A stretch of DNA of 64,000 bases from Rhodospirillaceae bacterium (GTDB taxonomy: Bacteria; Pseudomonadota; Alphaproteobacteria; Rhodospirillales; Rhodospirillaceae): contig CANJRD010000007.1 of NCBI GenBank assembly GCA_947476695.1, positions 1 through 64,000 on the forward strand, in the 5' to 3' direction. Each line of letters starts with the position of its first letter. Within the stretch, counting starts at the first letter, position 1. Below are positions 45,780-62,557 of the stretch, piece by piece. Under the pieces are notes generated by a model. That model saw only the letters and a program-made list of their open reading frames with translations. It was not told where the DNA came from and searched no databases. A program made the position numbers and the translations under genes.

Positions 45780-46859
45780 ATGAACAAGATCATCACCACG
45801 GCCGAAGTGTCTCCGCTTGTCGGCCGTACGCTGCCCGGTCTGATGACGCCGAGCCAGGGCTATAAGCCGTTCCGCTATCCGTGGGCGCACGACTACTGGA
45901 AGCGCCAGCAGCAGATCCACTGGATGCCGGAAGAAGTGCCGTTGGGCGAAGACTGCAAAGACTGGGCGACCGGTCTGACCGACAACGAGCGCAGCCTGCT
46001 CAGCCAGATTTTCCGCTTCTTCACCCAATCCGACATTGAGGTGAACGACAACTACATGGAGCGCTACGCGCGCGTCTTCAAGCCGACCGAGATCAAGATG
46101 ATGCTCTCGGCCTTCTCCAACATGGAGACGGTGCACATCGCGGCTTACGCCCTGCTGCTCGAGACGATCGGCATGCCGGAGACTGAGTTCGGCACCTTCA
46201 TGCAGTACAAAGAGATGGCCGATAAGCACAGCTACATGCAGAAGTTCGGCGTGGATACAGACGCCGACATCGCGCGCACGCTGGCCATGTTCGGCGGCTT
46301 CACCGAAGGCCTGCAGCTGTTCGCCAGCTTCGCGATGCTGCTGAACTTCCCGCGCCAGAACAAGATGAAGGGCATGGGCCAGATCGTGTCGTGGTCGGTG
46401 CGCGATGAATCGCTGCACTGCGAAGCGATCATCAAGCTGTTCCACACCTTCGCCAAGGAAACCGGCTGTCTGACGCAGTCCGTGAAGGACGACATCGTCG
46501 ATTGCTGCAAGACCGTCGTTGGCCTGGAAGACAAGTTCATCGAACTCGCCTTCTCGCTGGGCCCGGTCAACGGCATGACGCCGGAAGACATCCAGAAGTA
46601 CATTCGTTATGTCGCCGATTGGCGCCTGGGCCAGCTCGGCCTGCCGCAGATCTATAACGTCGCGGAACATCCGCTGCCCTGGCTGCAGCAGATACTGAAT
46701 GGTGTCGAACACGCCAACTTCTTCGAGACGCGCTCCACCGAATACTCCAAGGCCGCCACGCAAGGCATCTGGCACGGCCCGCAGGGCGTGTGGTCGCACT
46801 TCGACAAGATGGTCTCGACCCGCAAGACAGTCGCCGGCACCATCGTCGGCAACGCCTAA
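45780..46859 (+). CDS. nrdB: class I ribonucleotide reductase, beta subunit
   Basis: 359 residues. The metal ligands and radical Tyr are present: Glu-x-x-His-x-x-x-Tyr in NMETVHIAAYALLLE, an Asp/Glu region in SDIEVNDNY, Glu in FTEGLQLFAS and the Glu-His pair in RDESLHCEAI. Helical ferritin-like fold. No ATP cone. The enzyme makes and stores the tyrosyl radical for nrdA. The start MNKIITTAEVSP follows a CGGAAAG region. A terminator-like hairpin lies 66 bases after the stop. Confidence 0.96.
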   Translation: MNKIITTAEVSPLVGRTLPGLMTPSQGYKPFRYPWAHDYWKRQQQIHWMPEEVPLGEDCKDWATGLTDNERSLLSQIFRFFTQSDIEVNDNYMERYARVFKPTEIKMMLSAFSNMETVHIAAYALLLETIGMPETEFGTFMQYKEMADKHSYMQKFGVDTDADIARTLAMFGGFTEGLQLFASFAMLLNFPRQNKMKGMGQIVSWSVRDESLHCEAIIKLFHTFAKETGCLTQSVKDDIVDCCKTVVGLEDKFIELAFSLGPVNGMTPEDIQKYIRYVADWRLGQLGLPQIYNVAEHPLPWLQQILNGVEHANFFETRSTEYSKAATQGIWHGPQGVWSHFDKMVSTRKTVAGTIVGNA

Positions 46860-46906
46860 AGGCTGTCGTCGCGTTTATATGGGGTGCGTTAGTCCGCAGG
46901 GACGGC

Positions 46907-47038
46907 GTGGTGGTTCTGCGTTTCAGCCCGTTAGGCGGGCTTTCGAATGATGAAGCCACGCGCAGCGCCGCCTGGAACACCGTGCCGGTCGTCGGTTTGC
47001 CCGAAGATCGCGATCTGAAAATCGATTTTCTCGGCTGA
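46907..47038 (+). CDS. possible small protein downstream of nrdB
   Basis: A 43-residue frame from GTG 46907, with AGGGA five bases upstream: VVVLRFSPLGG, then EATRSAAWNTVPVVGLPEDRDLKIDFLG, in pieces. Codon choice in the second half is G/C-rich at third positions, as for real genes here. A hairpin that may end nrdB transcription lies inside the frame, which argues against it. No family recognised. Confidence 0.25.
   Translation: MVVLRFSPLGGLSNDEATRSAAWNTVPVVGLPEDRDLKIDFLG
46925..46944 (+). terminator. possible terminator after nrdB
   Basis: AGCCCG (46925-46930) and CGGGCT (46936-46941) with a 5-base loop, followed by TTC. The stem is short and the T run weak. Confidence 0.4.
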
Positions 47039-47153
47039 TTGCCAACCCATGCGATTGCCCACGCTGGCGATTGAAAGCCCGCGTTAAATCCTTTTGAATG
47101 CCGCCCAGGGGAAGACGGATGTCTTCGTGAAGGGGGCGGCGCGATGAGCGCCG

Positions 47154-47528
47154 ATGCCAGCGATGGAAATCGCTTTGGATACGGTCAGCTTTGTCATCAA
47201 CAAGGCACGCGAACTTGTTATCGATGAAAGCCGGGATGACGACGATGAGGACAGCGACGAAGGCGGGTCGGCCTTCGCCAGTTCGCCCGAAGTCGACGAG
47301 CTGCGCGAATTCATCGAAGGCCTGAACGAGGACGAGCAGGCCGAACTCGTGGCCATCGCCTGGATCGGTCACGGCACCTTCACGGCAGAGGATTGGGACG
47401 AGGCGGTTGAATCCGCGCTCGAAGAACATCCCAAGTCCGCCGCCGAATATCTGCTGACGTTGCCGCTGTTGGCAGAAGATCTGGAAAGCGGCTTGGCCGA
47501 CCTCGGCCTCGAGGTCGAAGACGAGTAG
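47154..47528 (+). CDS. DUF3775 family protein
   Basis: 124 residues from ATG 47154; ATG 47163 is the alternative. It is strongly acidic (DDDDEDSDEGG near residues 28-38). The block SPEVDELREFIEGLNEDEQAELVAI, then AWIGHGTF and W-D-E-A are the core of DUF3775, a small family of unknown function in alphaproteobacteria. Ten bases separate it from the first of three hydrolase genes, but it lacks a signal peptide and may simply be a neighbour. Confidence 0.8.
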   Translation: MPAMEIALDTVSFVINKARELVIDESRDDDDEDSDEGGSAFASSPEVDELREFIEGLNEDEQAELVAIAWIGHGTFTAEDWDEAVESALEEHPKSAAEYLLTLPLLAEDLESGLADLGLEVEDE

Positions 47529-47538
47529 GGAGAACGCC

Positions 47539-48501
47539 ATGCAAGCCTCCGCTCCGGTTCTGTCGCGCCGCCATGCGCTCGCGCTGGGCGCGGCGGGCTT
47601 CGCTTTCGGCTTGAAGCCGGCACGCGCCGCAGATTATCAGCGCAGTTGGACGTTCGGCGACGTGACCGTCAGTCGCGTTGTCGAAATGTCGGCACCTTAT
47701 CCGGCGGACAAGGCGTTTCCCGGCGCAGCCCTGGAGGCTTTCGACGAGAACCCCTGGCTGGTGCCGCACTTCTACGACCCGAAGGTCAAAGGCGTGATCT
47801 TCACGTACCAGGCCTGGATCGTGCGTACGCCGAAAATGGTGCTGCTGATGGACGGTGGCTTCGGCGAGGCGATGCCGAAGGAGCGTCCCGGCATGACGGC
47901 GGAATCCTTCCTCGACAATCTGAAAGCCGCCAAAGTCGCTCCAGATCAGGTCAACTACGCAATGAACAGCCATTTCCATTCCGATCACATCGGTTGGAAC
48001 ACACGGCGCGACGGCGATAAGCGCGTGCCGATGTGGGGAAAAGCGCGCTATCTGTTCGACCGAACTGAGGTCGAATTCTTCGCCAAAGCTGCGGCGGCCG
48101 GCCAGCCGATGGGCGCGAGCTTCAACGTCAGCATCAAACCCGTGATCGATGCCGGCGTTGCCGACTTGATCGACGGCGACCGCGATCTGGGCGACGGCGT
48201 GCGCATCCTTGCGCTGCCGGGCCACACGCCCGGTCATCATGGTGTCGCGATCGATTCCAAAGGCAAGCGTGCGGTGCTGTGCGGCGATCTGTTCCACAGC
48301 CCCATCGAGATCGTTCATCCGGAGTGGGATGTGGTGTTCGATTACGACAAGAACGAAGGCCGCAAGGCGCGCAATAAATTCCTCGACCAGTACACCGACG
48401 TTGACGTGACGATCTTTGCCGCGCACTTCGGCGGACCGACCGCCGGCAAGATCGTCAGCGAGAAGGGCGGCAAGCGGGTATTCAAGACCCTCGTGCCGTG
48501 A
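47539..48501 (+). CDS. Tat-exported MBL-fold metallo-hydrolase, copy 1
   Basis: 320 residues. N-terminus SRRHALALGAAGFAFG with AxA (ARA) is a twin-arginine signal. The metal motif HFHSDH (MNSHFHSDHIGWN) near residue 145 is the HxHxDH of the metallo-beta-lactamase fold; later His in LPGHTPGHH and the Asp in GDLFHSPIE complete the site. The layout, with a signal peptide and 320 residues, resembles the methyl parathion hydrolase / lactonase group. Substrate unknown. Copy 2 starts within its last four bases, so they are translationally coupled. Confidence 0.9.
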   Translation: MQASAPVLSRRHALALGAAGFAFGLKPARAADYQRSWTFGDVTVSRVVEMSAPYPADKAFPGAALEAFDENPWLVPHFYDPKVKGVIFTYQAWIVRTPKMVLLMDGGFGEAMPKERPGMTAESFLDNLKAAKVAPDQVNYAMNSHFHSDHIGWNTRRDGDKRVPMWGKARYLFDRTEVEFFAKAAAAGQPMGASFNVSIKPVIDAGVADLIDGDRDLGDGVRILALPGHTPGHHGVAIDSKGKRAVLCGDLFHSPIEIVHPEWDVVFDYDKNEGRKARNKFLDQYTDVDVTIFAAHFGGPTAGKIVSEKGGKRVFKTLVP

Positions 48502-49466
48502 TGCGCCGACCGTTCGCCATTTCACGGCGTCATCTGCTTGCCTCTGCTGCGGCCAGCTTTGCCTTCGGCCACGGCGCGCGTGCGGCGGAATATTCCCGCA
48601 GCTGGACCTTCGGCAATGTGACGGTCTCCAAGATTGTCGAGATGTCGGCGCCGCTGCCGGCCCGGCGTCATTTCCCCGACGCGCCATTGGACGTCCTCGA
48701 CGAGAACGCGAGCTGGCTTGCGCCTCACTTCTACGATCCCGCGACCAAGAACGACATATCGACCTATCAGGCCTACGTCGTGCGGACGCAGCGGATCGTG
48801 CTGGTCATGGACGGCGGCTACGGCGACTTCCTGCCGTCGGAGGCCGAGCGCCCCGGGCAGCATCGGGAATCGTTTGTAGACAACCTGCGCCGCGCCGGCG
48901 TCGCGCCGGAGCAGGTGACGCATGTGATCAACAGCCACTTCCACGCCGATCACATCGGCTGGAATACGCGGCGCGACGGCGAAAACCGCGTGCCGATGTA
49001 TCCGAAGGCGCGCTATCTGTTCGACCGCAAGGAATACGACGCCACCGCAACGGCCGCCGCGACCAATGCCGGGACCGCGACAGCGTTCAACGCCTGCGTG
49101 AAGCCCGTGATGGAGGCCGGTGTCGGCGATCTGATCGACGGCGATCTCGACTTGGGCGACGGCTTGCGGATCGTGGCGACCCCGGGGCATACGCCCGGTC
49201 ACCATTCGCTCGCCATTGCCTCCAAGGGCCGGCGCGCGATCCTCAGCGGCGACGTGATTCACAATCCCATCGAGGTGCTGCACCCTGAATGGACGATGGG
49301 CTTCGACGCCGACAAGGATGCCGCCCGGGCCCAGCGCATCAAGTTCGTCGACGCGCATACCGACGTCGATGTGACGATCCTGGCGGCCCATTTCGGCGGG
49401 CCGACCGCCGGAAAGATCGTCAGCGAAAAGGGCGGCAAGCGGGTGTTCAGGACGCTGGTGCCTTAG
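48498..49466 (+). CDS. Tat-exported MBL-fold metallo-hydrolase, copy 2
   Basis: 322 residues, start overlapping copy 1 by four bases. Twin-arginine signal SRRHLLASAAASFAFG. Metal motif HFHADH (NSHFHADHIGWN), TPGHTPGHHSLA and SGDVIHNPIE. It is close to copy 1 along its length (for example the shared AAHFGGPTAGKIVSEKGG near the end), so they are recent tandem duplicates that keep all metal ligands. Confidence 0.9.
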   Translation: MMRRPFAISRRHLLASAAASFAFGHGARAAEYSRSWTFGNVTVSKIVEMSAPLPARRHFPDAPLDVLDENASWLAPHFYDPATKNDISTYQAYVVRTQRIVLVMDGGYGDFLPSEAERPGQHRESFVDNLRRAGVAPEQVTHVINSHFHADHIGWNTRRDGENRVPMYPKARYLFDRKEYDATATAAATNAGTATAFNACVKPVMEAGVGDLIDGDLDLGDGLRIVATPGHTPGHHSLAIASKGRRAILSGDVIHNPIEVLHPEWTMGFDADKDAARAQRIKFVDAHTDVDVTILAAHFGGPTAGKIVSEKGGKRVFRTLVP

Positions 49467-49542
49467 GCCTTGGTACGCGGTGGCCATTGAACGGCACCGA
49501 CGCGCCTTCTACTCTTTCCGCTTATCTCCAGGGGAGGCTTTC

Positions 49543-50505
49543 ATGTCGGACAAGTTGATCTCGCGTCGTGGCGTCATCGGTGCGGGCCTAGGCGCGCTCG
49601 CGGCAACGCGTCTGCGCCCTGCCGGCGCGCAGGCCTTTCCGTCGACCTGGACCTTCGGCGAGGTGACGATCAGCAAGGTGCTCGACATGACGGGCCCGTT
49701 CTCCGCCGCGCGCGCGTTTCCCGGCGCGGATCTGTCCGAGATGGACAAATACGCCGACATGCTGGTGCCCTGGCACTACGAACCGGCGACGAAGAACGTC
49801 CTGTTCGACTATCAGGCCTTCGTCGTGCGCACGCCCCGCTATGTGATCGTGGTCGACGGCGGCCAAGGCAACGACAAGCCGCGCGGCAGTTCCGAAGCGA
49901 ATATGCGCAAAGGCCCATTCCTGGAGAACCTGAAGGCCGCCGGCGTCGTGCCGGAACAGGTGAACTTCGTGATGAATACACATTTCCATTCGGATCACGT
50001 CGGCTGGAACACAAGCACGAAGGACGGTAAGTTCGTGCCGACGTTCCCGAACGCGCGCTACATCTTCAATCAGGCCGAGGTCGACGGTTCACGCGCCAAT
50101 CTGGCCGCGGCCGGCATCGGCGTTTCGTTCGCCGACAGCATCCAGCCTGTACTGGACGCGAACATCGTCGACTTCATCAAGGGTGACCGCGAGATCGACA
50201 ACGGCGTGCGCATCGTCTTCTCGCCCGGCCACACGCCCGGGCACCAGGCTTTGTCGATCAACTCGAAGGGCAAGCGTGCGATCCTCTGCGGCGACCTGAT
50301 CCACAATCCGATCGAAGTCGTGCATCCCGAATGGGAAGTGCTGTTCGACGCCGACAAGGAAGCCGGCAAGGTGCAGCGCCATAAGTTCGTCGACGGCCAT
50401 ACAGACGTCGATGTGACGATCTTCGCCGCCCATTTCCGCGGCCCGACGGCGGGCAAGATCGTCAGCGAACGCGGCGGCAAGCGTCTGTTCAAGATGCTGG
50501 CCTAG
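49543..50505 (+). CDS. Tat-exported MBL-fold metallo-hydrolase, copy 3
   Basis: 320 residues from ATG 49543, preceded by GGGGAGG; an upstream extension of 21 codons is not supported. Twin-arginine signal SRRGVIGAGLGALAATR. Metal motif HFHSDH (MNTHFHSDHVGWN), PGHTPGHQALS, CGDLIHNPIE. More diverged from copies 1 and 2 than they are from one another, but the same family. Separate ribosome binding site; 76 bases from copy 2. The three together suggest a periplasmic hydrolase family that has broadened its substrate range. Confidence 0.9.
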   Translation: MSDKLISRRGVIGAGLGALAATRLRPAGAQAFPSTWTFGEVTISKVLDMTGPFSAARAFPGADLSEMDKYADMLVPWHYEPATKNVLFDYQAFVVRTPRYVIVVDGGQGNDKPRGSSEANMRKGPFLENLKAAGVVPEQVNFVMNTHFHSDHVGWNTSTKDGKFVPTFPNARYIFNQAEVDGSRANLAAAGIGVSFADSIQPVLDANIVDFIKGDREIDNGVRIVFSPGHTPGHQALSINSKGKRAILCGDLIHNPIEVVHPEWEVLFDADKEAGKVQRHKFVDGHTDVDVTIFAAHFRGPTAGKIVSERGGKRLFKMLA

Positions 50506-50510
50506 CCGCA

Positions 50511-50561
50511 GTCGCGGTTGTCCTTGCGCGCGGGTGAGGCCGGCGAAAAGAAAACCGCGAC
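50511..50561. repeat. 9-bp inverted repeat between convergent genes
   Basis: GTCGCGGTT (50511-50519) and AACCGCGAC (50553-50561) are exact complements 33 bases apart, just before the end of the opposing gene. Possibly a terminator with a long loop, or a binding site. Confidence 0.35.
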
Positions 50562-50573
50562 CACGCGAATGAG

Positions 50574-51116
50574 CTAGCTGTTCGCCTGTTGTTGCGCGTC
50601 CAGCAGCACCGAAAGCGCGCGGCTGTTCGAAGGCTGGGCATTGCCCGACACGAGGGGGTTTGGATTGGGCTCGTTCTTGGTCGAAGTCGATCCGTCCGTA
50701 TAGGTGATTGTCACGGTCACTGTGCCGTTGGCATTGGTCGTCGCGACCTGGCTGGCGATTGTCTTTTGGGAGTTGTCGGAGTTCGACGAGTCCTTGTCGC
50801 CGCCACCGTCCGGCGGCGGGCCGTGCGGGCCGCGTGCCTGCCGGGCGTTCTGGAACTCCGTTTGCAGCGACGAGAACGCGTCCTGCGCGCCGGAGAGATC
50901 GCCGGCGTCGAGCGCATCGCCGAGTTCCTCGATGTAGTTCGCCGCGGCGCTGCCGGCCGGCGGTTGCGGGCCGTTGGCGCTGTCGGATTGCAGCGAAGCA
51001 TAGGCCTTCTGCGCGCCGGCGAGATTGCCGGCCTTCAAGGCCTGCTGAAGACTTTGAAAGTCTGAGCGGACCTGCTGGAACTGCTGAGGGGTCTTCGAAA
51101 CGGGGTCAATCGGCAT
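50574..51116 (-). CDS. protein with two internal repeats of a helical motif
   Basis: 180 residues from ATG 51116, with a perfect AGAAGGAGG upstream. Residues ~14-45 (DFQSLQQALKAGNLAGAQKA) and ~68-97 (ELGDALDAGDLSGAQDAFSS) are two copies of a helical motif ending in FxSLQ/YASLQ. A Gly/Pro-rich spacer follows, then VTITYTDGSTSTKN, a beta-rich segment. Such repeats occur in proteins of unknown role in several proteobacteria. No signal peptide is visible, so it is probably cytosolic or exported by a special route. Confidence 0.75.
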   Translation of the reverse strand: MPIDPVSKTPQQFQQVRSDFQSLQQALKAGNLAGAQKAYASLQSDSANGPQPPAGSAAANYIEELGDALDAGDLSGAQDAFSSLQTEFQNARQARGPHGPPPDGGGDKDSSNSDNSQKTIASQVATTNANGTVTVTITYTDGSTSTKNEPNPNPLVSGNAQPSNSRALSVLLDAQQQANS

Positions 51117-51333
51117 GGGTGCCTCCTTCTGGGCGTTATGTTTTGGCCATCGCGCGCGCCGTTCCGAGTTCTCTCGAAAACGATGCGCCCTCATCGGCCG
51201 CTGCCGTGACCACCATCACGTACGTGGGTTATTTACCCACGCTTTACAAAGCCGGGCAAATGAATATTGGTAACGAAGTGCAACGTAACTGGCGCGAGGC
51301 TCCCTTGCGTGCGGATGTAACAGGCGACCTGGC

Positions 51334-52473
51334 ATGCCCGACGTGATGAAGAACGGCCCTCTCGCGGGTTTGCTTGTCGTCACCCTGGAACAAGCTGTCG
51401 CAGCGCCCTTGTGCAGCGCCCGGTTGGCCGATGCCGGCGCGCGCGTGATCAAGATCGAGCGCGCGGAAGGCGATTTCGCGCGCGGCTACGATACGGCGGT
51501 GAAAGGGCAGTCGACGTACTTCGTCTGGCTCAATCGCGGCAAGCAAAGCCTGGTCGCGGATATCAAGCAGCCGGACGACGCGGCGCTTCTGCATCGCATC
51601 CTGTCGCAGGCCGACGTGTTCATCCAGAACCTCGCGCCGGGTGCGGCGGCGCGCGCGGGCTTCGGCTCCGAAGAACTGCGCGCGCAATATCCGCGCCTGA
51701 TCACCGTCGATATTTCCGGCTATGGCGATACCGGGCCTTATGCGCAGATGAAAGCCTATGATCTGCTGGTGCAGGCCGAGAGCGGCTTGGCGATGATCAC
51801 CGGGCATCCCGCCGGACCTGGCCGTGTCGGCGTATCGGTTTGCGACATTGCCTGCGGGATGTCGGCGCATGCGGGCGTGCTGGAAGCGTTAATCGAACGC
51901 GGCATCACGGGGCGCGGCAAGGGGCTGAAGGTTTCCTTGTTCGACGGCATGGCCGACTGGATGAACGTGCCGCTGATGTATTACGAAGGCACCGGCAACG
52001 CCCCGCAACGCGTCGGCCTCGCGCATCCCACCATCAGTCCCTACGGCGCATTCGAGACCGCCGACGGTTCGCTGGTGCTGATCTCGATCCAGAACGAGCG
52101 CGAGTGGCAGGATCTTTGCGCCAAGTTCCTGGGTGAGGCGGACCTGCCGCGCAAGCCGGGTTTCGAGAATAACGGGGCGCGGGTGCGCAATCGTCCGGCG
52201 GTGGACGGCAAGGTCGCCGCCATGGTGAGGACGCTGACGCGCGATCAGGCGGCCGCGAAGCTGAACGCCGCCAACATCGCCTACGGCTTCGTCAACGATG
52301 TCGCATCGCTTGCGCACCACCCGGCGCTGCGCCGCGCCGACGTGCCCACGCCTGGCGGCATGGCGTCGATTGTCGCGCCGCCGGTGCAGACCAGTGACGG
52401 GCCCCGGGCGTTGGGTGCCGTGCCCGCCATCGGCGAGCACTCTGATCTGATCCGACGCGAGTTCGCGGGATAG
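51334..52473 (+). CDS. CaiB/BaiF family CoA-transferase
   Basis: 379 residues. GLLVVTLEQAVAAPLCSARLADAGARVIKIE, in pieces, is the typical start of type III CoA-transferases; GYGDTGPYAQMKAYDLLVQA carries the catalytic region, and VSVCDIACGMSAH follows. The enzyme moves CoA between carboxylic acids. No obvious partner gene is adjacent. The start could also be ATG 51346. Confidence 0.92.
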   Translation: MPDVMKNGPLAGLLVVTLEQAVAAPLCSARLADAGARVIKIERAEGDFARGYDTAVKGQSTYFVWLNRGKQSLVADIKQPDDAALLHRILSQADVFIQNLAPGAAARAGFGSEELRAQYPRLITVDISGYGDTGPYAQMKAYDLLVQAESGLAMITGHPAGPGRVGVSVCDIACGMSAHAGVLEALIERGITGRGKGLKVSLFDGMADWMNVPLMYYEGTGNAPQRVGLAHPTISPYGAFETADGSLVLISIQNEREWQDLCAKFLGEADLPRKPGFENNGARVRNRPAVDGKVAAMVRTLTRDQAAAKLNAANIAYGFVNDVASLAHHPALRRADVPTPGGMASIVAPPVQTSDGPRALGAVPAIGEHSDLIRREFAG

Positions 52474-52675
52474 GCCGAAATCCCTGCGAAATATTCACCG
52501 GGATACATCGCCGGCAGGGCCGATGGCCCCCGTCGGCCGTCCCACGGGGCGGAAACACGCGCAATTTATAGGGGAATCAGCTCCCAAAGGGGGGGCTTCC
52601 GACGCGCAGGCCTTGGGACGTGGACCGGGTCCGTTTATGATCGACCCACAGCCAATTTGCCTTGCGAGGATCATC

Positions 52676-54850
52676 ATGGGTGCCGTTTCGTCCGCCTTGA
52701 GCCGCCGCCGCTTCGTCGCCACGCTGAGCGCCGCCGGCGGTCTCGCCCTCGGGTTCAACGGCCGCGCCGACGCCGCAGCGTTAGGCACGGTGCTGCAGGC
52801 CGCCGAAACGCCGACCCCGCAAGAGATCAACGCCTGGATCGTGATCGATCCGGATGACAGCGTGCTGCTGCGCCTCTCCCACGCGGAGATGGGCCAGGGT
52901 GCGGGCACCACGTTGCCGATGATCCTGGCCGAAGAGCTTCAGTGCGACTGGAGCAAGGTGAAGGTCGAATATGCCTCCGCTTCGCGTAACGCGCGCGAGA
53001 AGGGCGTTTACGGTCCGATGGCCACTGTCGGCAGCCGCGGCACGCGGACCTCGGTCGCTCCGCTGCAGAAAGCTGGCGCCAATGCTCGCGTGCGCCTGAT
53101 CGCCGCCGCGGCCAAGCGCTGGAACGTCGCGCCGGACACCTGCGAAGCGCGCGACAGCAAGATCACGCACAAGCCGACCGGTCGCACGCTGACCTATGGC
53201 GCCGTCGCCGCCGATGCGGTGAAGGTGAAGCTCGACGTCGAGCCGGCGGTGAAGACGCCGGAACAGTACACGCTGATGGGTAAGCCGATCCCGCGCCTCG
53301 ACACGCCGTTGAAGGTCGACGGTACGGCGCAGTTCGGTATCGATGTGCGGTTGCCCGACATGGCCTATGCCGCCGTGATCTCCTGCCCGGTGCCGGGTGG
53401 GACCTTGAAGAGCTTCGATGCGAAGGCCATCGAAGGCCGCAAGGGCGTCATCGCCGTGGTGCCGATGAAGGACTCCATCGCCGTTGCCGCCGAAGGCAAC
53501 TACTGGGCCGCCAAGTCGGCCCTTGAGGCGGTGCATGTCGAGTGGGAAACCGGCGCCGCCGGCAAGACCAACAGCGCGCAGTTCAATCAGCTCTATCGCG
53601 ATGCCCTGAAGGAAAAGAACCCGGTCGCCGAGCAGAAGGGCAACATCGAAGACGCGTTCAAAGGCGCGGCGAAACAGATCGAGGCGATCTACGAAGTGCC
53701 CTATCAGGCGCATGCGCCGATGGAGCCGTTGAACGCCACCGTGCGCTTCACCGGCGACCAGTTGGAAGTGTGGATCGGCACGCAGCAGCCCGGCGGGGTG
53801 CTGGGTATCGCCGCCGCTGCGTCGGGCCTGCCGCCGGCCAACATCACGGTGCATAATCAATTCCTCGGCGGCGGCTTCGGCCGTCGCGGCAAGCACGACG
53901 AACTGCCGCATGCGATTGCGGTCGCTCAGGCGATCAAGCGCCCGGTGAAGCTGGTGTGGTCGCGCGAGCAGGATATCCGCCAGGATCGCTATCGTCCGCA
54001 GGCGGCGATCGGCTTCAAGGGCGCGATTGCAAAAGACGGCACTCCGGTCGGAATGGAAATCACCACCGCCGTGGGCTCGCTGTTCCGCTCGCTGGGCATG
54101 GGCAAGGTCGAGGACGGCATCGAGCCGGTGGCCGTCGAAGGGCTGTCCGGCAATCCCTACGGCATCCCCAACCAGCGCATCAATTGCGCCCTGCGCAACA
54201 TGCATATCCCCGTCTCGTTCTGGCGCTCGGTCGGCGCCTCGCAGAACGGCTTCGCCATCGAAGGCTTCATCGACGAGATGGCCTATGCCTGCGGCAAAGA
54301 TCCCGCGGCGTTCCGTCGCAGCCTGATCTCGCGGCCGGACTTCCTGGGCGTGCTCGACAAGATCATCGAGAAGAGCAATTGGAACACGCCGCTGCCGAAG
54401 GGCCGCGGGCGTGGCATCGCGGTGCACGAATGCTATGGCTCGATCATGGGCCAGGTGGCGGAAGTCACGGTCAGCCCGAACGGCGATCTGAAGGTCGACC
54501 GCTTCGTTGCCGCCGTGGACTGCGGCCATATCGTCAACCCGTCGATCATCGAGGCGCAGATCCAAGGCGCGGTGATCTGGGGGCTGTCGGCGGCGTTGCA
54601 CAGCGAAATCACCGTCAAGGACGGCGCTGTCGAGCAGTCGAACTTCAACGATTTCCGCATCCTGTCGCTGGCTGAAACGCCGGACATCGAAGTGCACTTC
54701 GCCTTGTCGGGCGGCGAGAAGTGGGGCGGCATCGGCGAACCGGGCGCGTCTTGCGTGGCGCCGGCGCTCTGCAATGCGATCTTCGCCGCGACCGGCAAGC
54801 GCATCCGTCGCCTACCGATCAAGGATCAGCTGAAGACTCTGTCCGCCTAA
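52676..54850 (+). CDS. Tat-exported molybdenum hydroxylase large subunit (isoquinoline 1-oxidoreductase beta type)
   Basis: 724 residues from ATG 52676, preceded by GAGGA; the frame extends upstream but the Tat motif fixes the start region. Signal SRRRFVATLSAAGGLALGF. The molybdopterin-binding blocks are SHAEMGQGAGTTLPMILAEEL, PMATVGSRGTRTS, the FLGGGFGRRG signature near residue 400, and the catalytic Glu in GIGEPGASCVAPA near the end. It belongs to the xanthine dehydrogenase superfamily, IorB-like, which hydroxylates N-heterocycles or oxidises aldehydes in the periplasm. The small [2Fe-2S] partner (IorA-like) is not adjacent, which is unusual. Confidence 0.92.
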   Translation: MGAVSSALSRRRFVATLSAAGGLALGFNGRADAAALGTVLQAAETPTPQEINAWIVIDPDDSVLLRLSHAEMGQGAGTTLPMILAEELQCDWSKVKVEYASASRNAREKGVYGPMATVGSRGTRTSVAPLQKAGANARVRLIAAAAKRWNVAPDTCEARDSKITHKPTGRTLTYGAVAADAVKVKLDVEPAVKTPEQYTLMGKPIPRLDTPLKVDGTAQFGIDVRLPDMAYAAVISCPVPGGTLKSFDAKAIEGRKGVIAVVPMKDSIAVAAEGNYWAAKSALEAVHVEWETGAAGKTNSAQFNQLYRDALKEKNPVAEQKGNIEDAFKGAAKQIEAIYEVPYQAHAPMEPLNATVRFTGDQLEVWIGTQQPGGVLGIAAAASGLPPANITVHNQFLGGGFGRRGKHDELPHAIAVAQAIKRPVKLVWSREQDIRQDRYRPQAAIGFKGAIAKDGTPVGMEITTAVGSLFRSLGMGKVEDGIEPVAVEGLSGNPYGIPNQRINCALRNMHIPVSFWRSVGASQNGFAIEGFIDEMAYACGKDPAAFRRSLISRPDFLGVLDKIIEKSNWNTPLPKGRGRGIAVHECYGSIMGQVAEVTVSPNGDLKVDRFVAAVDCGHIVNPSIIEAQIQGAVIWGLSAALHSEITVKDGAVEQSNFNDFRILSLAETPDIEVHFALSGGEKWGGIGEPGASCVAPALCNAIFAATGKRIRRLPIKDQLKTLSA

Positions 54851-55006
54851 CCCATCGTCGGCTTGCCCGAGTTGGGCGAAACGGTGACGGGATACGCACG
54901 TCTTCCGTCGTGGCTGCGCGCAACAAGGGCGTCTCTTCGGCGTTTTTTGTGAGTGGAGCGCCACTATCATCTCTTCCGGGGCGCGCCTTAGAAGGGAGAA
55001 CTCGCC

Positions 55007-55483
55007 ATGAAAAAGAGTTTGTTGGCCGCCATTTTCGGCGCCGCGGCGTTGCTGCCGCTGGCCGCCCAGGCCGAAGTCGCTTTCACCGACGGTCGCGCCA
55101 CGCTGCACGCGGGCCCGGGCCGTGAGTTCCCGCGTATCGACCGTCTGCGCTCGAACGTGCGTGTGAACCTTTACGGCTGCATCGACGGCTTCAGCTGGTG
55201 CGACGTGTCGATCGGTCGGGAGCGCGGCTGGGTGGACGGCGATAGCCTGTTCGTTCCCTACCAGGGCCGTCGCGTGCGCGTCATGGAGTATGGCTCGCGC
55301 ATCAATGTACCGATGGTCCGCTTCAACTGGGGCTATTGGGACAATTACTACCGTGGCCGCGGGTTCTATCGCGATCGCGACCACTGGCGTCGCCAGGACT
55401 TCGCCCGGCGTTGGAGCGATGCCGACGGTGACGGCGTGCCCAATCGTTTCGACGATCGACCGCGGAACCCGTACCGCAACTAG
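55007..55483 (+). CDS. exported SH3-domain protein, larger copy
   Basis: 158 residues. Signal peptide (LLAAIFGAAALLPLAAQAE). Bacterial SH3: RATLHAGPGREFPRIDRL, CIDGFSWCDVSIGRERGWVDGDSL. Two Cys flank the domain middle (YGCIDGFSWCDV), so a disulfide is likely. The tail (YWDNYYRGRGFYRDRDHWRR) is rich in Tyr and Arg. SH3b domains bind cell-wall peptides. A smaller paralogue lies 157 bases downstream. Confidence 0.85.
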   Translation: MKKSLLAAIFGAAALLPLAAQAEVAFTDGRATLHAGPGREFPRIDRLRSNVRVNLYGCIDGFSWCDVSIGRERGWVDGDSLFVPYQGRRVRVMEYGSRINVPMVRFNWGYWDNYYRGRGFYRDRDHWRRQDFARRWSDADGDGVPNRFDDRPRNPYRN

Positions 55484-55505
55484 AACTGCTGTCATTGCAA
55501 TCGCG

Positions 55506-55541
55506 AAAGAGCCCGCCCTCACCGGCGGGCTCTTTTATTTT
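55506..55541 (+). terminator. terminator after the larger SH3 gene
   Basis: AAAGAGCCCGCC (55506-55517) and GGCGGGCTCTTT (55524-55535), a 12-bp stem with a 6-base loop, then TATTTTC. Confidence 0.88.
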
Positions 55542-55640
55542 CATTGTCAAGCATCGGTCAGTAACGCGCGCGCGACTCAAGCGTTGGTGAGGTAAGGTTC
55601 ATCGCGAACCGATCAGACAACTCATGAGGGAGGCATTCAG

Positions 55641-56033
55641 ATGCGTAGGTTGCTTCTCGGCACGGTGTTGGGGGCGGCGCTGCTGAGTCCCATCGCGGCG
55701 AGCGCGTTCACCGCGTACGCCGATGAGACATTGAGCGTTCACGCCGGACCCGGTGCAAACTTCCCCGCGCTTGAAGAACTCGATACCAGCACGCGCGTGT
55801 GGCTGCACGGCTGCAGCCAAACTCTGGAGTGGTGCGACGTATCGCACGGCCGCATGCGTGGCTGGGTGCGCGGCGAGCACCTGGCGGTGCCGCGTGAAAA
55901 GCTCGCCAGTGGTGAGATTCCGGTCGCGAAGTTCGATATCCGCTCCTATTGGAACGACAATTATCGTGACGAGAAATTCTATGGCGATATGGCCCGCTGG
56001 GCAGACCAGCGTCAGGTTGCCGAACGCTTCTAA
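55641..56033 (+). CDS. exported SH3-domain protein, smaller copy
   Basis: 130 residues. Signal peptide (LLGTVLGAALLSPIAASA). SH3: TLSVHAGPGANFPALEEL, GCSQTLEWCDVSHGRMRGWV. The same order of HAGPG, Cys, WCDVS, GW as the copy upstream shows they are paralogues. The tail (SYWNDNYRDEKFYGD) is shorter but keeps the Tyr/Asp pattern. It has its own terminator, so the two genes are separate units. Confidence 0.83.
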   Translation: MRRLLLGTVLGAALLSPIAASAFTAYADETLSVHAGPGANFPALEELDTSTRVWLHGCSQTLEWCDVSHGRMRGWVRGEHLAVPREKLASGEIPVAKFDIRSYWNDNYRDEKFYGDMARWADQRQVAERF

Positions 56034-56050
56034 CGTCCTTCAAGACGACG

Positions 56051-56092
56051 AACAAGAATGGGCGGAGCCTCGCGGTTCCGCCCATTCTTGTT
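56051..56092 (+). terminator. terminator after the smaller SH3 gene
   Basis: AACAAGAATGGGCGGA (56051-56066) and TCCGCCCATTCTTGTT (56077-56092): a perfect 16-bp stem with a 10-base loop. Very stable; the terminal T tract is part of the stem. Confidence 0.85.
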
Positions 56093-56181
56093 GGCGCAGT
56101 TGATACCTCTATCCGCCCCCGGCAACCGCAACCCCTTCTAATTCCACCGAACCCGGCGGGGCGGACATTTTTGACGGGTTC

Positions 56182-56208
56182 GGGACGCTTTCTGGCGGTA
56201 CGAGCGTT
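56182..56208 (+). promoter_or_regulatory. weak EcfG-type promoter candidate before phyR copy 1
   Basis: GGGAC (56182-56186), 18 bases, CGTT (56205-56208). The EcfG consensus is GGAAC with 16-17 bases to CGTT, so one base in the -35 and the spacing deviate. Confidence 0.3.
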
Positions 56209-56332
56209 ATGCCATCGCAAGAATTGCGAAACCGCGCCTCGTTTCGCGTGGCCTTGTCAAGGGCTTCCGGCGCTGGGCGGGGCAGCGGTTCTTCGACTTA
56301 AAGACACTCGAGGACGACAAGGGGACTTCCGG

Positions 56333-57124
56333 ATGGCGCGTTCACAGCAAATCGTTCAACACCTGCCTTTCCTGCGCCGCTATGCGCGCGCGCTCACGGG
56401 TTCGCAAAGCAGCGGCGACGCGGCCGTGCGTTCAGTGTTGGAAGCCGTCATCCAGGATCAGAATGTGATCGGCGCTTCCGGTCAGGAACGCGTCGGCCTC
56501 TATCGTCTGTTCCATGTGATCTGGACGGCGGGCGAAAGCGCCACGAAGCGCCGGGTCGCCAAGGCCCCGGGCCGCGCCGCGATCAGCTCGAAACTCGCCA
56601 CGCTCGGCGTCGTGCCGCGCGAAGCGCTGCTCCTGACCATGATGGAAGGTTTCTCCCCCGAGGAGACCGCCACCATCCTGAACTGCAACGTGCAGGACGT
56701 CGTAGAACTGGTCGACGCCGCGATGACCGAACTGCGTGCGCCGGTGCCGGCGCAAATCCTGATCATCGAAGACGAACCGGTGATCTCGCTCGACCTGTCG
56801 CAGCTGGTCACCGAAATGGGCCACAGCGTGATGGCCGTTGCCCGGACCCGCGCCGAAGCGGTCGAAGCCGTGCGCGATGCGCGTCCGGCGCTGATCCTGG
56901 CCGACGTTCAACTTGCCGATGACAGCTCCGGCATCGATGCCGTGGCCGACATCCTCGAGAAGTTCGATGTGCCGACGGTGTTCATCACCGCCTTCCCGGA
57001 ACGCCTGCTGACCGGCGACCGCGCGGAGCCCGCGTATCTCATCACCAAGCCGTTCGTGCCGCAGAACGTGAAGACCGTCGTCGGCCACGTGCTGTCGATG
57101 GCCGAAGAAGCGGAAGCCGCCTAG
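56333..57124 (+). CDS. phyR: PhyR-type general stress response regulator, copy 1
   Basis: 263 residues from ATG 56333 (GGGGA upstream). Residues ~1-130 are a sigma-factor-like domain (HLPFLRRYARALTGSQSSGD, EALLLTMMEGFSPEETATIL) and ~135-260 a receiver: ILIIEDEPVISLDL, phospho-acceptor Asp in LILADVQLADDSSGIDA, TVFITAFPERLLTG and the Lys in LITKPF. When phosphorylated, PhyR binds the anti-sigma NepR through its sigma-like domain and frees EcfG. The PhyR of this window comes in two copies, both complete. Confidence 0.94.
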   Translation: MARSQQIVQHLPFLRRYARALTGSQSSGDAAVRSVLEAVIQDQNVIGASGQERVGLYRLFHVIWTAGESATKRRVAKAPGRAAISSKLATLGVVPREALLLTMMEGFSPEETATILNCNVQDVVELVDAAMTELRAPVPAQILIIEDEPVISLDLSQLVTEMGHSVMAVARTRAEAVEAVRDARPALILADVQLADDSSGIDAVADILEKFDVPTVFITAFPERLLTGDRAEPAYLITKPFVPQNVKTVVGHVLSMAEEAEAA

Positions 57125-57128
57125 CGTT

Positions 57129-58610
57129 TCAAGCGGCGACGTCGGGGCGATCGCGGTGGGCATTCGTGGGGCGTAAGCCCTTCGGCAACGCCCAGCCCGC
57201 GATGCCGCCGGCGGCGGCAATTACAATCCCCACGATGAAGGCGAGACGCAACGCGTCCGCCACCGCGCCGGTGACATGCGTCAGTTCGGCCGCGCTGAAC
57301 AGCGCGCGCCGCACCGGGTCGACCAGGTACTGCACAGGATCGGCGATCGCTGGCAGGCTGCGCGCAAGGCTTGTGTTCATCGCCGCCCCCAGGAAGGCCG
57401 TGCCCAGAGCCGCCCCCATCATGCGGTTGAAGGCATTGAAGGCGATGGCGATGCCGCGCACGTTCCACGATGCGGCATCCTGACAGGCGACAAAGAACGG
57501 CGAGTTCAGGAAGCCGAGACCGATACCGGTCAGGAACGACGCCACCGAGGCAAAGGTGGTCGAGGTCTCCGGGCCCATCATCGCCAGCATCCCGCTGCCG
57601 ACCATCAGCACAATCGCGCCGAGAATGGCTGACGTGCGGTAGGACGCGCGCAGCATCAGCCGGCCCGACAACGTCGCGGCAACCGGCCAGCCCAGCGACA
57701 TGAACATCAGCGGCGTGCCCGCGGCGTAAGCGGACGTGCCTAGCACGGCCTGCATGTACGTCGGGACGAAAACCGACACGCCCATCGACGCCGCGCCGAC
57801 CGCCAGCGCACCGAGATTGCAGGTGCGGATGATGTGGTCCTTCCACAGGAAGAACGGCAACAGCGGTTCCGGCGCGCGGCGTTCCTGGCGGGCGAACAGC
57901 ACCGCGCTGATCAGGCTGATACCCAGCACCGGCAACAACAGCGATCCGAGGTGATCCGCTTGCATCAGAGCCAGCATGAAGGTGCCGATGGCGATCACCA
58001 GCAACACGGCCCCGAACAGATCGATCTTGTGCTCGGCACGGCGCGGCGTTTCGCGGAACAGGAAGGCGATCAGCAGCGTGACGATGATCGCGATGGGGAT
58101 GTTGAACCAGAAGATCATCGGCCAGGTAAACTTGTCGACGATCAGCGCGCCGAGCATTGGGCCGATGACCGCGGCCAAGGCCCACATGCTGGCAAAAAAC
58201 CCTTGAAGCCGCGCGCGCTGCGCCGGCGTCAGCACGTCGCCGACGATGGTCTGCGCGACCGGCATGATCCCGCCGGCGCCGAGCCCCTGCACGACGCGCG
58301 CGAAGACCAGGAACAGCATGTTGGGGGCGAGGCCGCACAAGAGGGAGCCCAGAGTGAACAGGCCGGCGCCGATGAAAAACATCGGTTTGCGGCCGTACAG
58401 GTCCGCCAACCGGCCATAGATCGGGATGATGACGGCCTGCGCGAGGAGATAGGCGGCGAACGTCCAGCCGAACAGCGCATAGCCGCCGAGGGCACTGGCC
58501 ACGCGGGGCATGGCCGTGGCGGTGATGGTGCCTTCCACCCCGGTCATGAACATCACGCCCATGCAGGCGACGATGACTAACGCCTGCTTGCGCTTCTCAA
58601 CCGAATCCAA
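57129..58610 (-). CDS. MFS transporter, DHA2 family (EmrB/QacA type)
   Basis: 493 residues with 14 membrane segments. The N-terminal pattern ATAMPRVASALGG, GRLADLYGRKPMF (motif A) and LGAGGIMPVAQTIVGD are typical of 14-helix drug:proton antiporters. It ends with a short charged tail. No membrane-fusion partner gene is near. The stop lies 4 bases from the phyR stop; genes are convergent. Confidence 0.9.
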   Translation of the reverse strand: MDSVEKRKQALVIVACMGVMFMTGVEGTITATAMPRVASALGGYALFGWTFAAYLLAQAVIIPIYGRLADLYGRKPMFFIGAGLFTLGSLLCGLAPNMLFLVFARVVQGLGAGGIMPVAQTIVGDVLTPAQRARLQGFFASMWALAAVIGPMLGALIVDKFTWPMIFWFNIPIAIIVTLLIAFLFRETPRRAEHKIDLFGAVLLVIAIGTFMLALMQADHLGSLLLPVLGISLISAVLFARQERRAPEPLLPFFLWKDHIIRTCNLGALAVGAASMGVSVFVPTYMQAVLGTSAYAAGTPLMFMSLGWPVAATLSGRLMLRASYRTSAILGAIVLMVGSGMLAMMGPETSTTFASVASFLTGIGLGFLNSPFFVACQDAASWNVRGIAIAFNAFNRMMGAALGTAFLGAAMNTSLARSLPAIADPVQYLVDPVRRALFSAAELTHVTGAVADALRLAFIVGIVIAAAGGIAGWALPKGLRPTNAHRDRPDVAA

Positions 58611-58719
58611 CGTCGCGTCTCCGAGTTACGGCGCTGAAAAAGCACGCTGGTCCCGGCCTGTCCAGCGGGACTGCGGGCGATATCTCACGCTGTGTGCCAG
58701 CTATCGCAGGATTGGGATT

Positions 58720-60573
58720 TCAAACCGCCGCTGCGGCATCCCATTCCTCCTGCAAAGCCATCCAGGTGGCTTCGGCTTCGGACAACGCCGTTTCCTTAGC
58801 CCGCAGGTTGGCCTGCAAGGTCTGGAGCTTTGCCGCCGGCCCGGTGTACAGCGCGGGGTCGGCGAGCGCGGTCTGCAAGGCGGCGACCTCGGCATGCAGC
58901 TTGGTCGCCAGGGATTCGGCCTGGTCGACCTTCTTCTTCGAGGGCTTTGGGCGCGGCGCGGGCGGCTTGGGTTCAGCCTTCGGCGCAGCTTTCGGCGGCT
59001 CTTCGCGCACGGCGCGTTTGTTGAGCAGCCGCGCGCGATAGTCGCTCAGGTCGCCGTCAAAAGGTTGCACACGCCCGTTCTCGATCAGCCAGAAGCGGTC
59101 GGCGGTCAGCTCGACGATATGCGGATCGTGGCTGATCAGGATCACCGCGCCGTCATAGGTATTGATCGCCTCCACCAGGGCATCGCGGCTGTCGATGTCG
59201 AGGTGGTTGGTGGGTTCGTCCAGGAGCAGCAGGTGCGGCCGGGCCGAGGTCATCAGCGCGAACAGCAGCCGCGCTTTCTCGCCGCCCGAAAGGTGGCCGA
59301 CGATCGTCTCGGCGCGCTCCTGGCTGAAGCCGAAACGGCCCAGTTGGCTGCGCACCTCGCGCTCGCTGTCCTGAGGGCGGCGGCGCGCAAGTTCCAGGAT
59401 CGGCGTCGCGGACAGGTCGAGTTCCTCGGCCTGGTGCTGCGCGAAATAGCCGATGCGCAGTTTGTTCGATTTCGCGACCTCGCCGGACATCGGTGTCAGA
59501 CGGCCCGCGAGCAGTTTCACGAATGTCGATTTGCCGTTGCCGTTCGCGCCCAGCAACGCGATGCGGTCGTCGGAATCGAGCCGCATGGAGATGTTGCGCA
59601 GGATCGCTTTGCCGTCGTAGCCGACCGAGACGTCCTCGAAGGTGATCAGGGGCGGCGGCAGTTCCTCGGGCGGCGGGAACGACAGCGAGATGCCGGATTC
59701 CTCGGTGATCCCGACAACCGGTTCCATACGCTCAACCATCTTCAGGCGCGACTGCGCCTGTTTCGCCTTCGTCGCCTTGGCGCGGAAACGTTCGACGAAC
59801 TTCATCAACTCGGCTTTGCGGGCGTCTTGTTTCGCGCGCTGCTTTTCGGAGTGGACGATCCGCATACGGCGCGTGGCGGCGAAGCGGTCGTACCCGCCTT
59901 GATACAGCGTCAGCTTGCCGCCTTCGAGATGCAGGATCTCGTCGACCGCGCGATTGAGCAGTTCGCGGTCGTGGCTGACGATCAGGATCGTGCCGTTATA
60001 GCCGCGTAAATATTCCTCAAGCCATACAGTGGCTTCGAGGTCGAGGTGGTTGGTGGGTTCGTCGAGGAGCAGCAGGTCCGGTTGGGTGAACAGCAAGCCG
60101 GCGAGCGCCACGCGCATCCGCCAGCCGCCGGAGAAATCACTGCAGGGCCGCGCTTGTGCCGTATGATCGAAGCCGAGCCCCGCCAAGATGCGGGCCGCGC
60201 GCGCCGTGGCCGTATGCGATTCCTTGTCGCGCAAACGCGCATGGATCTCCGCGATCCGATCGCCGTCGGTGGATGTTTCCAGCTCACGCTGTAAGTCCGC
60301 GAGCTCGGTGTCGGCCGCGATCACCGTGTCGAGCAGGCTTTCCGCTCCGGCCGGCGCTTCCTGTTTGGTGATGCCGACCTTCCAGCGGGACGGCATGTCC
60401 ATCTCGCCGGCATCCGCTGACAGGGTGCCGGTGAGGAGCTTGAGCAGCGTCGTCTTGCCGGTGCCGTTTCGCCCGACAAGGCCGACGCGATGGCCCTCAT
60501 TGATGGTCGCGCTGGCCTCATCGAGCAGCACGCGGCCACCGATGCGATAGGTAAGCGCATTGATCCGCAACAT
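58720..60573 (-). CDS. ABC-F family ATPase (Uup/YheS-like)
   Basis: 617 residues with two ATP-binding halves: Walker A GLVGRNGTGKTTL and ALLGANGNGKSTF, signatures DFSGGWRMRVALA and LSGGEKARLLF, and Walker B LLLLDEPTNHLDLE and LLLDEPTNHLDID. No membrane segments; a charged linker between the halves (KATKAKQAQSRLKMVERM) and a coiled C-terminal tail. ABC-F proteins bind the ribosome E site and resolve stalling. Start codon ATG at 60573. Confidence 0.92.
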   Translation of the reverse strand: MLRINALTYRIGGRVLLDEASATINEGHRVGLVGRNGTGKTTLLKLLTGTLSADAGEMDMPSRWKVGITKQEAPAGAESLLDTVIAADTELADLQRELETSTDGDRIAEIHARLRDKESHTATARAARILAGLGFDHTAQARPCSDFSGGWRMRVALAGLLFTQPDLLLLDEPTNHLDLEATVWLEEYLRGYNGTILIVSHDRELLNRAVDEILHLEGGKLTLYQGGYDRFAATRRMRIVHSEKQRAKQDARKAELMKFVERFRAKATKAKQAQSRLKMVERMEPVVGITEESGISLSFPPPEELPPPLITFEDVSVGYDGKAILRNISMRLDSDDRIALLGANGNGKSTFVKLLAGRLTPMSGEVAKSNKLRIGYFAQHQAEELDLSATPILELARRRPQDSEREVRSQLGRFGFSQERAETIVGHLSGGEKARLLFALMTSARPHLLLLDEPTNHLDIDSRDALVEAINTYDGAVILISHDPHIVELTADRFWLIENGRVQPFDGDLSDYRARLLNKRAVREEPPKAAPKAEPKPPAPRPKPSKKKVDQAESLATKLHAEVAALQTALADPALYTGPAAKLQTLQANLRAKETALSEAEATWMALQEEWDAAAAV

Positions 60574-61759: not shown

Positions 61760-62557
61760 ATGTCCCTCGGCAAAGAAGTCGCCCAGCAGCTTCCCTACCT
61801 TCGCCGCTATACGCGCGCCCTCACGGGAACGCAGCGCATCGGCGATGCGATTGTGAAGAAAGCCCTCGAAAGCATCGTTGCCGATCCGGCGAGCTATGAC
61901 CGTTCGGTCGGGGGGCCGCGCGCTGCGCTTTACCGTGCTTTCCAGCGCACCTGGACTGGCGTGCTCGGCGGTGCAGAAGGCCGCGCTATCGGCGTCTCGC
62001 ATGACGCACCGGATATCGGCGAGCGTCTGCGCGCGCTGAACCCGATCCGCCGTCAGGCGCTCCTGCTGACGGCGATGGAAGATTTCTCGCACAGCGACGC
62101 GGCCGCGATCCTCGAATGCTCGATCGACGCCGTCGATCAGATGGTGCGCGACGCACTGCTCGATCTGGTCGCGCAGACGCCGGCGACCGTGCTGATCATC
62201 GAGGACGAGCCTGTGATCTCGCTCGATCTTGCCAACATCGTCGAAGAGATGGGCCACACCGTTGTCGCCATCGCAACGACGCGTACGGAAGCGGTGGCCG
62301 CCGCGCGTGAAACCAAACCGGGCCTTGTGCTCGCCGACATTCAGCTGGCCGACGACAGTTCCGGCATCGACGCGGTGAACGACATCCTCGCCGAGCGTCC
62401 GACATCCGTGATCTTCATCACCGCCTATCCGGAACGCCTGCTGACCGGTGAACGTCCGGAGCCCGCGTTCCTGGTGACGAAGCCTTTCATTCCTGAGAGC
62501 GTGAAGGCTGTAATCGCGCAGGCCCTGCTGCTCAGCGAAGAAGCGCTCCGCGCTTAA
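61760..62557 (+). CDS. phyR: PhyR-type general stress response regulator, copy 2
   Basis: 265 residues. Sigma-like domain: QQLPYLRRYTRALTGTQRIGD, RQALLLTAMEDFSHSDAAAI. Receiver: VLIIEDEPVISLDLANIVEEM, Asp in LVLADIQLADDSSGIDA, VIFITAYPERLLTGE and Lys in VTKPF. Near-identical receiver to copy 1 but more divergent in the sigma-like half, the part that binds NepR. It is followed by two strong hairpins and a convergent ompA. Confidence 0.94.
   Translation: MSLGKEVAQQLPYLRRYTRALTGTQRIGDAIVKKALESIVADPASYDRSVGGPRAALYRAFQRTWTGVLGGAEGRAIGVSHDAPDIGERLRALNPIRRQALLLTAMEDFSHSDAAAILECSIDAVDQMVRDALLDLVAQTPATVLIIEDEPVISLDLANIVEEMGHTVVAIATTRTEAVAAARETKPGLVLADIQLADDSSGIDAVNDILAERPTSVIFITAYPERLLTGERPEPAFLVTKPFIPESVKAVIAQALLLSEEALRA

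Follow-up and report, generated by a model that had tools for sequence, protein, structure and literature searches.

A lineage-specific tandem array of predicted Tat-exported metallo-beta-lactamase-fold hydrolases in a Rhodospirillaceae bacterium

A 64,000-nt stretch of a Rhodospirillaceae genome (GenBank assembly GCA_947476695.1, contig CANJRD010000007.1, positions 1 to 64,000 of the forward strand), referred to here as the window, carries at 47539-50505 of the plus strand three tandem genes for hydrolases of the metallo-beta-lactamase (MBL) fold, each with a leader of the twin-arginine translocation (Tat) type. We consider it reasonably probable that the products of these genes, copies 1-3, are Tat-exported periplasmic dizinc hydrolases of the structural group of dihydrocoumarin hydrolase, LrsL and AidC, that their activity is of the lactonase or aryl-esterase type in a scavenging setting, and that the array grew in place. 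The enzyme class is ordinary; the array is lineage-specific and belongs to a predicted exported branch within a known kind of enzyme.

All three copies are intact, full-length open reading frames (ORFs). Copy 1 (47539..48501, 320 aa, leader MQASAPVLSRRHALALGAAGFAFGLKPARA; called from its ORF and Pfam match) begins 10 bases after a DUF3775 gene. Copy 2 extends over 48501..49466 from an ATG (321 aa) or over 48498..49466 from a GTG. Thus, the four-base overlap with copy 1 described in the first-pass annotation holds only for the GTG at 48498, and shrinks to a single base (TGATG) with the ATG at 48501. Copy 3 (49543..50505 from an ATG, 320 aa) follows after a gap of 76 bases, and a GTG at 49480 would give it a longer ORF. 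Each copy matches PF00753 (Lactamase_B; E 3.7e-20 to 2.3e-19, 70.6-73.1 bits against a curated cut-off of 22.7) and carries both HFH[SA]DH and an SRR near the N-terminus, which confirms the earlier description of three tandem MBL-fold paralogues with twin-arginine-type leaders and metal sites. In the alignment, the dizinc ligand columns (H, H, D, H, H, D, H) are complete in copies 1-3, and no ligand has been lost. The proteins are 66% (copies 1 and 2), 54% (1 and 3) and 51-52% (2 and 3) identical, too diverged for the array to be an assembly artefact.

The relationships of the copies were examined among 53 homologues, retained from 91 ORF matches at E <= 1e-10 after dropping repeats of one gene and matches spanning under 200 profile positions (the dropped rows include L016, L017, L027, L028, L029 and, in L077, a broken second copy; L099 and L100 are among the loci outside the tree). 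Together with five PDB segments they form the 58 rows of the tree, whose root is for drawing only, and of the ligand count; alignment A3 holds the 45/53 rows scoring at least 150, the other eight being L054 twice, L052, L015, L053, L055, L056 and L018. The patterns used to scan genome contigs required an F[HD][SAT]DH[VIT]GW or PEW motif, and residue counts on the homologues so found are biased accordingly; the searches of the own genome (G000) and of family genomes required no motif pattern. In the 58-row tree, copies 1 and 2 are sisters (support 100/99) and group (98/87) with copy 3 and with a fourth Tat-type paralogue, copy 4, located on own-genome contig 6 (L006:5701-6684) and 54-58% identical to copies 1-3. 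The sister of this group (100/98) is the copy found in G001, a genome of the same genus. Support for the four-copy group was 93/89 in a 17-row tree. Copies 1-3 fall within one Tat clade of nine rows (100/96), not in unrelated families, and the wider branch, marked by the motif HxHxDHxGWNT, comprises 44 mostly leaderless rows (98/98). The five PDB rows, L015 and L018 form the branch of methyl parathion hydrolase (MPH) and OPHC2 (100/99), and the window copies are placed elsewhere.

An N-terminal SRR leader was found in 10/53 retained homologues, of which nine make up the Tat clade among leaderless branches; an automatic rule had flagged 13/53, and L031, L040 and L046 were discounted, their motifs lying before the start, right at the mature domain, or inside the domain. 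The tenth leader belongs to L015:1369-2379, whose placement near LrsL and L018 is weakly supported (82/50), indicating that Tat leaders occur also outside the Tat clade studied here. The leaders of copies 1-3, as read from the sequence, have the features of Tat substrates (SRRx, a hydrophobic stretch, and A-x-A before the mature chain), and tatC is present in the genome; the copies are predicted to be exported folded via Tat to the periplasm. In L039:7887-8918, the SRR leader runs into LPGC, so that this relative is possibly a Tat-exported lipoprotein.

Searched with copy 3 (E <= 1e-3), the own genome gave five matches: copies 1-3, copy 4 and a distant leaderless relative on contig 1. Copy 1 was matched at E <= 1e-55 in 17/73 genomes of the family, and members of the Tat clade occurred in five of the 73 (G000, G001, G018, G044 and G082), with more than one copy only in the own genome. 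At a cut-off of 1e-60, matches were found in 14/297 genomes of the order and 2/385 of the class, the own genome being counted in both. The scan of genome contigs added 22 loci, one of which, L039 from a metagenome-assembled genome titled Steroidobacteraceae, belongs to the Tat clade. Among 28 related loci whose flanks were scanned (the window and two own-genome loci excluded; flank lengths were uneven and some contigs short), a tandem pair occurred in one (L093) and three copies in none. That pair, at L093:4677-6400 in a distantly related genome from the class, has its second copy broken by a stop codon. Relatives on plasmids, more distant than the leaderless ones of related genomes, were 33-38% identical to copy 3 among the matches listed (30 of 871 records), and were mostly annotated as 'MBL fold metallo-hydrolase'.

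The interval that holds the array (window 47529-58719) varies between genomes, and the genes at both of its edges are conserved. Its left edge is the DUF3775 gene (47154..47528, plus strand; PF12616, 4.4e-28), syntenic in G001 and in G002, another genome of the genus, and its right edge is an ABC-F-like ATPase gene (58720..60573, minus strand). The window and G001 share the order DUF3775, Tat-type MBL, CoA transferase, xanthine-dehydrogenase-like, SH3-like, response regulator, major facilitator superfamily (MFS) and ABC-F. For SH3-like, response regulator, MFS and ABC-F in the window, as for RND in G001, the names come from ORF reading with no family search. The CoA-transferase family III gene (51334..52473, plus strand; PF02515), downstream of the array, is 76% identical to its G001 counterpart. 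In G001, the interval is larger, with one MBL copy and extra genes interspersed, and in G002 it is absent, the DUF3775 gene ending at 29064 and the ABC-F gene starting at 29066. Because the MBL genes occupy a variable stretch between conserved edges, the array most likely arose by growth in place. Local duplication, proposed in the first-pass annotation, is borne out by the single clade of the array and the single copy in the colinear G001 interval; as judged from the tree, the array probably postdates the split of G000 and G001.

The growth of the array does not look recent. For the six pairs of own-genome copies, synonymous divergence (dS) is 0.96-1.97, nonsynonymous divergence (dN) 0.28-0.42 and dN/dS 0.20-0.44. 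Synonymous divergence is at about the between-genome level and near saturation, indicating that the four genes have long been kept by purifying selection, as the earlier proposal of selection on the kept copies had it. That proposal had also pointed to long stretches shared by copies 1 and 2 near the C-terminus, and at the protein level these exist: 33/35 columns of the last alignment window are identical. A recent copying or conversion of these ends would explain the likeness. However, the longest identical DNA run between copies 1 and 2 is only 20 nt, their dS is about 1.1, the identical-codon run is within shuffle expectation (p 0.58), no conversion tract was detected between own copies, and the GPTAG block at the C-terminus is common in the wider family too. 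Clearly, the tests of synonymous sites and run length speak against gene conversion or late copying, and a recent array is almost certainly not what we see. The likeness of the C-termini reflects constraint on the protein. Copy 1 and the G001 copy share an identical run of 39 nt (shuffle p 0.0024, uncorrected, one of eight pairs tested).

The copies have diverged to different extents. At 49 near-invariant positions (the same residue in 85% or more of 41 other rows, most of them leaderless), copies 1 and 2 differ at 13 each, copy 4 at nine, and copy 3 and the G001 copy at five each; the low count of the G001 copy is favoured by its own presence among the 41. Beside HxHxDH, copies 1 and 2 have changes in common that neither copy 3 nor copy 4 has (V121I, W132R, T135M, and F136 to Trp or Tyr, in mature copy 1 numbering). 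Mature position 77 is Cys in 37/45 rows; the four Tat-type copies of the own genome have Gly there. In copy 4, the motif is HFDSDH instead of HFHxDH, with Asp at the second ligand, the sole such row of 58. Functional divergence would account for the changes in copies 1 and 2 as well as for the altered ligand of copy 4, and the copies may form the broad hydrolase set that had been suggested. Copy 3, earlier called older, is better described as the conservative copy, with copies 1 and 2 as sisters.

These differences suggest an order of duplication, which we give as a scenario. A single ancestral gene between the DUF3775 and CoA-transferase genes would have been duplicated in place in the own lineage, copy 3 retaining the ancestral features. 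The second copy would have altered residues beside the metal site and then duplicated into copies 1 and 2, while a fourth copy would have ended beside a TonB-receptor gene and swapped one ligand. In approximately unbiased (AU) tests, trees holding copies 1, 2 and 3 together (p 0.498) or copies 3 and 4 together (p 0.154) were accepted, so more than one order of branching fits copy 3, copy 4 and the 1/2 pair. More speculatively, and with some doubt on our part, the four Tat-type paralogues might represent a genus-level radiation of a periplasmic MBL branch without characterised function, in which the 1/2 pair and the dispersed HxDxDH copy acquired new substrates or metals, as a hydrolase panel fed by TonB receptors.

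The AlphaFold2 model of mature copy 1 built with an alignment had a mean pLDDT of 92.7 (a first model, without an alignment, reached 34.2 and was not used). Its best matches among solved structures were AncDHCH1 (Z 32.8), MPH (32.5), LrsL (31.2) and AidC (30.1), with PoOPH and AbOPH also at Z 30-33, followed by 3esh (29.0), OPHC2 (26.2), AiiA- and GcL-type lactonases (about 22-23) and metallo-beta-lactamases (about 15); the model was also ranked by Foldseek. In a sequence search of solved chains, LrsL was the best match of copy 1 (1.1e-25), and AncDHCH1 came first for copy 3 and for a six-row profile. Membership of the B3 beta-lactamases or of the acyl-homoserine lactone (AHL) lactonases by curated models was also considered and rejected, the cut-offs not being reached (20.9-28.1 bits against 240 for the B3 model NF033105 of NCBIfam; the AHL lactonase scores are given below). 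The third residue after the bridging Asp (Asp+3) is His in 53/58 rows, Thr in three actinobacterial rows and Leu in two, MPH and OPHC2. All copies have His there, not the Leu of the MPH type (h258L), and combine it with the dizinc ligands as LrsL, AidC and MomL do. According to PMC9441902, LrsL, AidC and MomL all conserve this His, which MomL requires, and AiiA-type AHL lactonases have Tyr instead. PMC8222346 describes h258L as one of five changes that turned a dihydrocoumarin hydrolase into MPH, an activity of recent origin, and PMC5052733 reports that MPH retained arylesterase and lactonase activity.

The surroundings of the relatives suggest a setting of uptake and breakdown of organic compounds. 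Copy 4 is preceded by a TonB-dependent receptor gene and followed by genes for a GntR regulator, a protein of the phosphoenolpyruvate (PEP)-mutase/isocitrate-lyase family and an MFS carrier. The G001 copy is flanked by regulator genes of the TetR and GntR types, followed by genes for a TonB receptor, an FAD-binding hydroxylase-type protein and an alpha/beta hydrolase. A relative from a genome with a Baikal-deep title has SDR and DUF1838 genes nearby, and the relative in L037 an alpha/beta hydrolase and a GST. DUF1838 genes were seen near MBL relatives in two genomes (L010:60-956 and L036:4815-5801).

By analogy with characterised relatives, from which metal content, catalysis and substrate class are read here, the HxHxDH...H...D...H site would hold two metals along with a hydroxide for attack on an ester carbonyl, and the His at Asp+3, in place of the tyrosine of AiiA, would help to position the substrate. 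Likely substrates would be lactones or activated (aryl) esters met during the scavenging of organic compounds. Fold and metal-site residues thus support the kinship to lactonase-type enzymes behind the earlier lactone proposal. The organophosphate-type activity proposed beside it is disfavoured: because of the Asp+3 residue and the work on the origin of MPH, a lactonase or aryl esterase is the better guess and an organophosphatase the poorer one. MPH is among the nearest folds, tied with AncDHCH1, and AbOPH (4xuk) has the same His at Asp+3, which weakens the residue test. Nevertheless, MPH and OPHC2 have Leu at this position, MPH activity has its recent origin in a dihydrocoumarin hydrolase (PMC8222346), and the copies branch away from MPH, so that hydrolysis of organophosphates or phosphotriesters appears very improbable.

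Quorum quenching in the periplasm by LrsL-like AHL lactonases is a special case of the lactonase reading, with which its odds overlap. The match of copy 1 to LrsL in sequence and structure and the His shared with LrsL, AidC and MomL (PMC9441902) favour it, but the copies branch apart from LrsL, which groups with MPH-type rows (AidC and MomL lie outside the tree), no AHL lactonase model reaches its cut-off, and a single signal would seem to need fewer than three divergent copies; we regard it as unlikely. The cleavage of another bond (thioester, carbonate, amide or similar) in a catabolic route, with GWNT marking a distinct specificity, is a tentative possibility. It would suit a distinct branch in which the HxHxDHxGWNT block hardly varies and for which no characterised member was found, as well as the CoA transferase, FAD hydroxylase, alpha/beta hydrolases and PEP-mutase-like lyase encoded near the copies and their relatives; set against it, esterase and lactonase relatives are the best match in fold and metal-site residues.

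Several observations weigh against the lactonase or aryl-esterase reading of a Tat-exported array grown in place. The nearest solved chains are 20-26% identical, and AncDHCH1 and MPH tie within 1 Z, so the fold cannot separate a lactonase from an organophosphatase. AbOPH, named OPH in its PDB title, has His at Asp+3, so Leu at this position marks MPH and OPHC2 and not every enzyme named OPH. With the NCBIfam AiiA, AttM, AidB and YtnP models, the copies score 34.9-72.8 bits, far below the cut-offs of 360-425. No tested member of the branch was found; the literature did not contain the strings DHVGWN, DHIGWN or DHTGWN, although this is a weak test. Tat export depends on leaders called by motif reading. 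Directly beside the window array, there was no regulator, transporter or pathway gene naming a substrate. With respect to age, holding copy 3 and the G001 copy together was rejected only marginally (AU p 0.046), and copy 3 shares 61% identity with the G001 copy but 51-54% with copies 1 and 2, which makes duplication before the split of G000 and G001, with loss in G001, a possible alternative.

Beyond copy 3, the minus strand carries a 206-aa ORF (50574-51194) with two stretches that look similar by eye (LQQALKAGNLAGAQKAYASLQ and LGDALDAGDLSGAQDAFSSLQ) and no Pfam or NCBIfam match at E <= 0.001. Two response-regulator-like ORFs, also alike by eye, lie within about 6.4 kb (56171-57124 and 61760-62557), and both have G001 counterparts. 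Rfam gave no match in 46500-51500, and a scan for promoters and terminators returned no promoter-like site and six terminator-like ones against 4.3 expected.

With one copy in the relative, three and one here, and the gene order kept, these genes offer a natural series for MBL-fold diversification. For an exported branch with no tested member found, they yield a residue-level prediction, of the lactonase type rather than organophosphatase, and the His-to-Asp ligand swap of copy 4 provides a ready test of metal-site plasticity.

Among known systems, LrsL (PDB 7Y7U), an AHL lactonase with a Tat leader according to PMC9441902, resembles the copies in fold (Z 31.2, 271 aligned, 25% identity), in the seven ligands and in the His at Asp+3, but it sits in a separate branch with MPH-type rows, and its motif is HMHPDH without GWNT. 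AncDHCH1 (5HIF) and MPH (1P9E), the top fold matches (Z 32.8 and 32.5), have the same dizinc ligands; identity is 24-26%, and the copies carry the His of the ancestor at Asp+3, not the Leu of MPH. AidC (4ZO2) is similar in fold (Z 30.1) and, as given in PMC9441902, in its His at Asp+3, but is only 20% identical to copy 1. AiiA-type AHL lactonases have the MBL fold in common with the copies (Z about 22), but differ in their Tyr at Asp+3 (PMC9441902), and the copies reach 36-59 bits against the AiiA cut-off of 375 in NCBIfam. The leaderless HxHxDHxGWNT hydrolases of the MBL fold form sister branches with 36-45% identity to copy 1 in the matches from family and order genomes, and differ from the copies in that no export leader was seen in them by motif reading.

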